Assembly: GCA_949291545.1 (NCBI GenBank)
Contig: CASEWB010000011.1
Location: 62,001-126,000 of the forward strand
Reading direction: 5' to 3'
Length of the DNA stretch: 64,000 nt
Origin: an uncultured bacterium
Lineage (GTDB): Bacteria > Elusimicrobiota > Elusimicrobia > Elusimicrobiales > Elusimicrobiaceae
Below, piece by piece: positions 9,492-12,622 of the stretch. Under the pieces are notes generated by a model. It worked only from the letters and a program-made list of their open reading frames with translations. It ran no database searches and was not told the DNA's origin. Made by a program: the position numbers and the translations under genes. Within the stretch, counting starts at the first letter, position 1. Every line of letters begins with the position of its first letter.

Positions 9492-9504
9492 AGTGCGATA
9501 TTGG

Positions 9505-9510
9505 TATAAT
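9505..9510 (+). promoter_or_regulatory. -10 box of the small lipoprotein gene (leaderless)
   Basis: TATAAT 6 nt before the ATG at 9517, beginning 13 nt after the lipA stop. Confidence 0.65.
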
Positions 9511-9516
9511 AAAATT

Positions 9517-9873
9517 ATGAAGAAAAATTTGCTTTCTTTAGCAGTATTTAGCTTGCTGTTGGCCGCTTGTGCCGGGAATCCGCCTGCGTGGTGGAACCCC
9601 AGCAACTCTTATTCGTCCTCCGGCCAATCGGCACGGCCGCGGCCGGCGCAGGCGGCCTCTTCCGGCAATATTACGGTATCAGCCCCTGCGCAGGAGGAAA
9701 CTTTTATCCCGCAGGAAGAAGCCATTTCTACCCCGTTGCCCGACGAAAGTTATGAAGAAATGATTTTGACACCCCTGCAGGACGAAGAAACCGAAAACGC
9801 TTCCGGCGAGGCTTCGGCACAAAGTTCCCCGTCCGAAACGGGCCAGCTGCCGCCGCCGAGCGTGTTGGAATAA
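9517..9873 (+). CDS. Small Pro/Ser/Glu-rich lipoprotein, unknown function
   Basis: A 118-residue lipoprotein with signal MKKNLLSLAVFSLLLAAC (lipobox Cys18). The mature part is low-complexity, rich in Ser, Pro, Glu and Gln, with no domain I recognise; it is probably disordered. An in-frame start 24 nt upstream (9493) is less likely: it would place extra residues before the signal and lies upstream of the -10 box. Its own terminator follows, so it is monocistronic. Confidence 0.82.
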   Translation: MKKNLLSLAVFSLLLAACAGNPPAWWNPSNSYSSSGQSARPRPAQAASSGNITVSAPAQEETFIPQEEAISTPLPDESYEEMILTPLQDEETENASGEASAQSSPSETGQLPPPSVLE

Positions 9874-9887
9874 GTTTAAAGTATATA

Positions 9888-9911
9888 AACCCGGGTTTGC
9901 CCGGGCTTTTT
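9888..9911 (+). terminator. Intrinsic terminator after the small lipoprotein
   Basis: CCCGGG-TTTG-CCCGGG stem-loop (9890-9905) followed by CTTTTT. Confidence 0.85.
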
Positions 9912-9918
9912 GATGGGG

Positions 9919-9962
9919 AAATATAAAAGCGGAACCCCCCGGTTAACAAAACCGAGGGGTTC
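9919..9962 (-). terminator. Terminator of the orphan ncRNA
   Basis: On the minus strand, GAACCCC-CGGTT arms (9950-9962 with 9932-9944, one central mismatch) flank an AACAA-type loop and lead into CGCTTTTATATTT. Confidence 0.85.
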
Positions 9963-10411
9963 ACCTTGACGTCTCCATTATTACTCCTCACTGCGTCATC
10001 TACTGCTCTCAGGATAGGCCCAACCATCTTACACCGGGACTTATGCCGCTTACTGTTTCCACCCGGCCGAAGCAATTACATCAACCGCCGGAAACAACGT
10101 ACACACGAACTAGCACGACTTCCATTACCTTTCCGCCGCACTACACCGCTTTACAACTCCGCGTCGGCACGCTTACAACCAAGCGGGAACAACACTTATC
10201 GCCCTGCCCCGCCCGCGGCCAGATACGCCCGGCTATACGCCTTTACCAGTTCCCGGACAGTTATGTAACCTAACCATCCTGACTTTGCCTAGCGCGTATG
10301 CCCACATCTTCCGGCCTCCGTGCCTTTACAACAACAGCAACACTACCTCACGTCACCGCTTTTGTCCGCTTACAAGCAGCCCCCGGCAGGGCCTACGGAC
10401 TAACTTCCTGT
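9925..10411 (-). ncRNA. Orphan structured non-coding RNA, about 490 nt
   Basis: This gap of about 600 nt between the small lipoprotein and glyS has no credible protein frame on either strand; the short open frames lack RBS and family signatures. The minus strand has a complete transcription unit: a -35 TTGAAA, 16-nt spacer, TATACT, then about 490 nt ending in a GC-rich hairpin with a U-rich tail. Inside are many short complementary arms and four copies of the word TTGTAA (complements at 10151-10156, 10173-10178, 10326-10331, 10370-10375), several within small hairpins such as CGCTT/AAGCG. It lacks the universal RNase P core (GAGGAAAGUCC, ACAGAA), the tmRNA ends and the SRP apical loop. I cannot name it. 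The flanking genes have their own terminators, so it is an independent RNA. Confidence 0.7.
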
Positions 10412-10417
10412 ATGGAT

Positions 10418-10445
10418 AGTATAGGCAGATTTAAAAAATTTTCAA
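10418..10445 (-). promoter_or_regulatory. Promoter of the orphan ncRNA
   Basis: TTGAAA (complement 10440-10445), a 16-nt spacer and TATACT (complement 10418-10423). Predicted +1 is near 10411. Confidence 0.75.
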
Positions 10446-10543: not shown

Positions 10544-12622
10544 TTACAGGCGCGTAATATCCGCCACCGTTTGCGTCAAGTAGCGGCGCACCCGGGCCAA
10601 AAGCGCCAGGCGGTTCTGCCTTACGGCAGGGTCCTGGGCGTTTACCATTACATCCTTAAAGAAATTTTCCAGCGGTTCTTTAAATGCGCTGTACGTTTTA
10701 AGAATGTTGAGGTAGCCCTCCTTGGTTTGGGCCGTATGCACCGTGCAGCCCAGCGAAGCGTCCACTTCGTGGATTTTGTCGTACAGGGCTTTTTCGGCCG
10801 GGAGTTCAAACAAGCTTTCGTTTACGTCCTCGGTTACATTTTCGGCTTTTTTAAGGATATTGCACACGCGTTTGGCCGGTTCCAAAATTTGGGCAAAATC
10901 TTCACCTGTTTTGACCGTTTCCAACGCGCTTACCAAGGCTTCCACCTGTGTTAAAGGCATTTCGTACCAGTTCGCCACGGCATTTAGCGTGGCGGCTTTG
11001 TGCCCGCGCTGTTCCAGCACCAAGGCCAACCGCTGGAATAAAAAGCCCGGAAGTTCTTTTAACCCTTTATCCGGCGTGCCCGCAGGATACAACGAGGCGG
11101 ATTTTTCCACCAATTGCTTTAGGGAAACGTTCATTTCCTTTTCCAGCAAAATGCGCACCGCGCCAAACGCCTGGCGGCGCAGGGCGAAGGGGTCCTCGCT
11201 GCCGGTGGGAATCTGCCCGATTAAGAAGTTGCCCGTCAGCGTGTCCATTTTGCCCGCCAGCGAAACGATGCACCCTTCTTCGGTGGAGGGGAGTTCGGAG
11301 GAGGAGGTAAGCGGGAAATAAAATTCTTCCATCGCTTTGGCGGCTTCGGGGTGGCCTTCCAGCGCGGCATATTGGCCGCCCATATAGCCCTGAAGTTCCG
11401 GGAACTCGTATACAACGTGGCTGGCTAAATCGGCGTATGCGTGCGAGGCGGCATAATCCACCGCGTCTTTTAGCGCGGGTTTATGTAAGGTTTCGCACAG
11501 CCAGTTGGCCAATTTTTGGGTGCGTTCGGACTTTTCGTACATCGAACCCAAGCCTTCCAAAAATTGTACGTTTTTGAGTTTTTCTTTAAATTTTTCCAAG
11601 CCGTCTTTTTTGTCGTTTTCAAAAAAGAACACCGCGTCCGACAGGCGGGCGGACATCACTTTTTTAAACCCGTCGCGCACTTCGTTCTGGTTGGCGGAGA
11701 TACCGTCCCGCACGGCGATAAAGTAGGGCTGCAGCTCCCCTTTGTCGTTGGTGACGGGAAACATTTTAATTTGTTTTTTAAGCACCGTGGTCACCAAATC
11801 TTTGGGGAGGGTTAAAAATTTAATTTCAAAATCGCCGCCCACGGCTACCGGGTGCTCGGTAAACCAAACGGTTTCTTCAATTAGTTCCGGGTCCAGATCC
11901 GCTTGATAACCGCGGATTTTTGCTTCGTTGGATACCGTTTTGATAAGCGCCTCTTGGCGTTCCTGCGGCAAGGCCAAAATAGGCTGCGGTTGGGAACGGA
12001 GCAAATCGGCGTAGTAGGCTTTGTCGGCCTTGGCTACTTTAATCGGTTTGCGGCCGAAAGAGGAAAGCGGATAAGTGTTGCGGTTGGATTCCACACCCGC
12101 CACGGAGAATTTAATCACTTTTTCGCCGTAGAGGCCAATCAGCGAGCGGATGGGGCGGCCGTAGCGCAGGCCGGAGTCTTCCCAAATCATATTTTTGGCA
12201 AATTCCAACCCGGTTACAATGCGGGTAAAAATTTCCGGCAGCAATTTGACGGTCTTTTCGCCTTTGATTTTAACTACCGCATAAATAAAGGGGCCTTTTT
12301 CCGTTTCTACAATCGTCAGCTTTTCCGGTGCAATACCGTTCTTTTGCGCAAAGCCGGCGCTCTGGGGGGTAAAGTTGCCGTTGGCGTCTTTTAACAGTTT
12401 GGCCGGCGGCCCTTTGACTTCTTTTTGTACGTCGGCCGATTTTTCGGAGATGTCTTCAACCAATACCACCAAGCGGCGGTAGGTTCCAAAAGAATCCACC
12501 GACTTGTATGAAATTCTTTTTTCGTCCAAAATCTGGGCGGTAAGTTCTTTTAGCTGCTTTAAGGCAGGCGCCATAAAGCGGGCGGGCAAATGTTCTACGC
12601 CAATTTCCAGTAACGCGTTCAT
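10544..12622 (-). CDS. glyS: Glycyl-tRNA synthetase beta subunit
   Basis: The beta chain of the bacterial alpha2beta2 glycyl-tRNA synthetase, 692 residues, near the usual length. It binds tRNA-Gly. It opens with the family sequence [21 protein letters not shown] and contains the conserved HD-like core (e.g. [21 protein letters not shown]) and a C-terminal DALR/anticodon-like helical region ending [16 protein letters not shown]. The start overlaps the glyQ stop by 4 nt, ensuring balanced subunit production, and a terminator follows. Confidence 0.96.

Follow-up and report, generated by a model that had tools for sequence, protein, structure and literature searches.

A structured RNA of gut Elusimicrobiaceae that ends in a conserved five-codon reading frame and may offer a ribosome docking site

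The region between glyS and the lipA operon in the window (the whole 64,000-nucleotide stretch of DNA analysed) contains a predicted RNA of ~487 nt, here named RNA-A (9925..10411, minus strand), delimited by promoter-to-terminator conservation in the genus and with its start placed from the -10 box. On one side lies glyS, encoding the glycyl-tRNA synthetase beta subunit (10544..12622, minus strand), with its own terminator at 10519-10502. On the other side, a small gene following lipA (9493..9873, plus strand) is convergent with RNA-A and also has its own terminator (9890-9905). The RNA-A promoter, TTGAAA-16-TATACT (10418..10445, minus strand), has its boxes at 10445-10440 and 10423-10418 and matches the consensus at 10 of 12 positions. 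The 16-nt spacer is exact in all 45 distinct readable homologous promoters, which combine TTGACA, TTGAAA, TTGATT or TTGAAT with TATACT or TATAAT. Three promoter-like sites were found at the locus compared to 0.5 expected from shuffles. A terminator scan against shuffles identified an intrinsic terminator hairpin with a 13-pair stem (9932..9962, minus strand; T tail to ~9921), the strongest of 5 terminator-like sites where 1.7 were expected. As RNA-A has its own promoter and terminator and both flanking genes are separately terminated, it is predicted to be transcribed as a separate unit, and the near-consensus promoter makes high abundance plausible.

A preliminary description of this DNA had proposed an orphan structured RNA of ~490 nt with its own promoter and terminator. 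Both the predicted length and the two signals, each above shuffle expectation, agree with this proposal, as does the lack of a match in Rfam. Its characterisation of the RNA as GC-rich was overstated, G+C being ~55% and close to the local level. The transcribed strand does display a strong G-over-C skew, of 0.21 to 0.41 in 48/48 homologues; it is possible that C-rich Rho-loading sites are avoided in a mostly untranslated RNA. The hexamer TTGTAA indeed occurs four times, a number reached in 1 of 2000 shuffles; most homologues contain none or one copy, and hence the repeat is not a feature of the family.

RNA-A homologues were collected from the lipA-to-glyS region across the genus, which we take to be Avelusimicrobium. 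A DNA search located full-length homologues in seven further genomes of the genus, at 78-92% identity, and an iterative profile search of the lipA-to-glyS regions recovered a complete or nearly complete RNA-A, promoter and terminator included, in most. With a covariance model of the 3' domain, strong matches (E < 1e-8) were obtained in 56 of the 66 genus genomes; across the 341 genomes of the phylum there were none outside the genus. With three further genus genomes that carry RNA-A by profile, the RNA is conserved in at least 59 of the 66 genomes of this genus of gut Elusimicrobiaceae (including UBA1436), at lengths from ~230 to 545 nt; among the remaining genus genomes, several sequences break off at the RNA-A locus. 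RNA-A was not found downstream of glyS in sister genera, and those weak covariance-model matches in other genera that were inspected proved to be the ends of protein genes with terminators. When 84,980 genomes were scanned with a degenerate motif, a minority of the matches lay outside Elusimicrobiota, and none of these was a family member by profile. Three matches in viral or phage contigs were likewise not RNA-A members.

The most constant neighbour is glyS, which adjoins RNA-A in nearly all carrying genomes and remains in place where lipA has moved off. The small post-lipA gene is adjacent in most genomes, not all; RNA-A is separated from lipA in some genomes and inverted relative to glyS in two.

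Compared with its dinucleotide shuffles, the minus strand has the better predicted fold (z = -3.85, with 0/100 shuffles as good), the signal of the plus strand being weaker (z = -2.0). For the 12-sequence clade of the window, RNAalifold yields 140 pairs, of which 27 display double compensatory changes, compared to a mean of 9.8 in shuffled controls; displacing the 3' partners by 1-3 columns leaves 4 to 8 such pairs. Of the cells counted, 98.0% are paired, a figure biased upward because the structure was derived from the same alignment, and the compensatory changes are the stronger evidence. This covariation supports the proposed fold. The structured domain is closed by a helix between UAGGCCC (10389..10395, minus strand) and GGGCCUA (10015..10021, minus strand), both strands of which are supported by covariation. 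The most conserved internal hairpin, GGUUGAUGUAAUUGCUUCGGCC (GGUUGAU...UUCGGCC; 10065..10086, minus strand), sits on an outer stem (10090-10095 / 10055-10060) whose sequence differs between clades while pairing is kept. An independent nine-sequence clade (locus L053 and relatives) also shows a closed domain, followed by an unpaired stretch with the Shine-Dalgarno (SD) sequence and mini-ORF and then the terminator; its closing helix consists of 12 pairs of different sequence in the same place. Covariation and folding in two clades thus point to a selected structure, one hallmark of a dual-function RNA.

RNA-A homologues share a common layout: a 5' domain, folded and variable and in most cases enclosed by a long-range helix, leads into a mostly single-stranded linker with the SD and a five-codon ORF, and the terminator hairpin follows from the stop codon. 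In the window, the 3' end reads AGGAG TAATA ATG GAG ACG TCA AGG TGA between closing helix and terminator, with the SD AGGAG at 9984..9988 and the mini-ORF (Met-Glu-Thr-Ser-Arg) at 9961..9978, both on the minus strand and the latter with its stop at the terminator base. The earlier view that no protein frame here is credible must be revised in light of this conserved feature, although no long ORF is conserved across RNA-A homologues. In 36/36 distinct versions of the region, an ATG accompanies an SD-like sequence and has a stop in frame near the terminator stem; within a clade these versions are related and hence not independent trials, the pattern recurring in many separate clades. The mini-ORF is 4-8 codons long and nearly always 5, the variants of 4 and 8 arising by whole-codon changes; some start with tandem ATGATG, and UGA, UAA and UAG all serve as stops. 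An in-frame stop lies just upstream in 38/41 cases, so the mini-ORF is not the tail of a longer reading frame. When the 15-nt interior was shuffled, a correctly placed stop with none earlier arose in ~6% of trials.

The encoded peptides include METSR, METLR, METSN, MQTSR, MDTAR, MKTQS, MKVHS and MKEST, as well as MTQTK, MNERK, MSNS, MGCCSGAV and others. Among close relatives (METSR, METLR, METSN, MQTSR, MDTAR), replacing changes outnumber silent changes. With frame, length, start and stop retained through this sequence drift, the identity of the mini-peptide is probably immaterial. Few stretches of RNA-A are as unpaired as the SD/ORF linker (median percentile 0.97 across 48 homologues). In the window's own clade the linker is less open, as the SD is pairable with an upstream UCCU (helix 17) and the ORF is predicted to be partly paired. 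This UCCU, just past the closing helix at 10010-10014, can pair with AGGA of the SD (9984-9988), and it can also pair with CAGGA at the 5' end of RNA-A; these alternative pairings could switch ribosome access on and off.

In two genomes (L229 and L230, at G026:C10 and G003:C34), RNA-A is shrunken to ~230 nt and inverted relative to glyS; it retains the promoter, the hairpin, the SD, the mini-ORF (MTPSN, MTPCN) and the terminator. Judged from these sequences, the mini-ORF is at least as persistent as the ornate domain. A further hallmark of a dual-function RNA, a selected frame on the same transcript, is thus seen both in the 36/36 regions and in the shrunken forms. An SD followed by a five-codon ORF is not enriched genome-wide (5 compared to 14 in the control), so this ending is specific. 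In the same genomes, neither the RNase P gene nor the tmRNA gene has a trailing mini-ORF.

Weak matches to the RNA-A covariance model led to a second locus (G000:C7:112682 and relatives), outside the window. RNA-B (L151:1184-1611 = G000:C7:112683-113110, minus strand) is a structured RNA that spans ~410-440 nt and has a promoter of its own; in the genomes inspected, it lies downstream of a gene with, by eye, an apparent HTH and S24/LexA-like region. Its fold includes 28 pairs with double changes, and no match to RNA-B was found in Rfam. RNA-B also ends in a mini-ORF abutting the terminator, usually of 6 codons (MEESTR at G000:C7; MEQSTN, MNKPVK and others elsewhere), with a poor SD match. The presence of two RNA families with the same ending in one genome argues against coincidence.

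We give an even chance to a model in which RNA-A is a structured RNA, transcribed on its own, that carries a docking site for a single ribosome, where we infer translation, expression and function from sequence. The linker comprises ~15-36 nt before the AUG plus the 18-nt ORF, similar in size to one ribosome footprint. A ribosome would initiate on this linker, read four more codons and be released before running off the end of the RNA, with the mini-ORF as short as the geometry of linker and footprint permits. Its occupancy would shield the one exposed segment of RNA-A from nuclease and/or keep the fold attached to the ribosome, where this domain may regulate translation. In the window's clade, docking may be gated or weak, given the SD pairing and partly paired ORF. 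More tentatively, and at somewhat less than an even chance, the RNAs of at least two families in each gut Elusimicrobiaceae genome could form a new class, the 'ribosome-docked' RNAs. In these, a freely evolving fold would be tethered to ribosomes via a footprint-sized linker whose ORF of 5-6 codons is locked between fold and terminator, and the RNAs would act on or sense translation.

The alternative that survives best, although we consider it unlikely, is that RNA-A is a conventional trans-acting structured ncRNA whose mini-ORF is a relic, or a nuclease block or termination aid, and is rarely translated. In most clades the fold is indeed the bigger element and clearly under selection, and SD accessibility varies. 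Such a reading does not readily account for a start, frame and stop that are kept through whole-codon length changes, nor for a mini-ORF that is kept when the folded domain shrinks to ~230 nt.

Less probable still, the mini-peptide itself could be the product, a five-residue signal or effector for which the structured RNA serves as an unusually large regulatory leader. Strict conservation of the frame would fit this proposal, and the peptides are mostly short and polar, with RNA-A MKEST and RNA-B MEESTR sharing the DNA stretch GAGTCGAC. A role for the peptide is possible given this recurrence of short polar peptides (METSR, MKEST, MEESTR). Free variation of the peptide among close relatives, with its excess of replacing over silent changes, argues against it, as does the neighbourhood: no processing or export gene lies beside RNA-A, the neighbours being glyS and the lipA operon.

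The position of the stop codon at the terminator base corresponds to leader-peptide geometry, and a ribosome on the mini-ORF might cover the 5' arm of the terminator and cause read-through into a downstream gene. We consider such an attenuator highly unlikely, as there is no conserved same-strand gene after RNA-A that could be regulated: the gene that follows runs convergently and is separately terminated, and the arrangement is itself variable, with RNA-A inverted relative to glyS or apart from lipA in the genomes noted above.

The preliminary description had also set RNA-A apart from RNase P, tmRNA, SRP and 6S RNA, and this holds. Searches of the RNA-A locus against Rfam 15, at gathering and permissive thresholds, returned chance-level matches only, with no relevant match even at permissive E-values, and the same was found for nine divergent RNA-A homologue loci. 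RNase P RNA (RF00010) and tmRNA (RF00023) were rejected as identities for RNA-A, the genome's own copies being located at G000:C6:44424-44769 and G000:C6:182212-182558, respectively; ARAGORN detected no tmRNA within the window. The 6S model (RF00013) does not match RNA-A, and Rfam identified no 6S RNA in 21 genomes (13 of this genus, including the genome studied here, and 8 of the same order), with a model that fails in many control genomes too. Despite its size, ornate fold and own promoter and terminator, RNA-A thus has a negligible chance of being a divergent known large RNA (RNase P, tmRNA, 6S, SRP, OLE, ROOL, GOLLD or a group I/II intron), given the lack of an Rfam match and the RNase P and tmRNA elsewhere in the same genome. 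Nothing was found in support of the catalytic or storage-type role suggested for it.

Should the ribosome docking model be correct, RNA-A would represent a new RNA architecture, in which a minimal reading frame is a handle for the ribosome rather than a coding sequence. It would also imply that selection can act solely on the position and frame of a very short ORF, with consequences for the interpretation of ribosome-profiling signals at tiny ORFs. RNA-A furthermore provides a clear and testable RNA system from a gut lineage, and the literature searched here apparently contains no description of the non-coding RNAs of this lineage.

Several known systems combine some of these properties. In dual-function small RNAs such as SgrS, RNAIII and Spot 42, one transcript contains both an RNA part and an ORF, and the ORFs encode peptides of ~15 residues or more with conserved sequence; RNA-A in contrast has 4-8 codons of drifting sequence in a fixed geometry. 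RNA-A resembles tmRNA (RF00023) in being a structured RNA with a short reading frame that meets the ribosome (as predicted for RNA-A), but has neither tRNA-like ends nor an Rfam match. In the portion of the account available to us, the ornate large RNAs OLE, ROOL and GOLLD (PMC12286853) are, like RNA-A, long, elaborately folded and supported by covariation, with a function that is poorly understood, and no mini-ORF of this kind is described there. RNA-A differs from them in being shorter, chromosomal beside glyS and devoid of an Rfam match, and in its conserved terminal mini-ORF. The nearest precedent for docking, by analogy, is the LEE4 leader, whose six-codon mini-ORF has a strong SD: a ribosome there shields the transcript from RNase E, SD occupancy being sufficient and the peptide irrelevant (PMC8708949). 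The LEE4 mini-ORF, the axe-txe minigene and ycbK (PMC8708949) all pair a strong SD with an ORF of 2-6 codons, similar to the ending of RNA-A; these precede a protein gene, whereas in RNA-A nothing but the terminator follows the mini-ORF, and there is no downstream cistron. In the literature searched, the combination seen in RNA-A is absent from both the ornate large RNAs and the mini-ORF leaders, and we hence propose that its architecture is categorically new, where a sceptic might see a variant of the dual-function RNAs.
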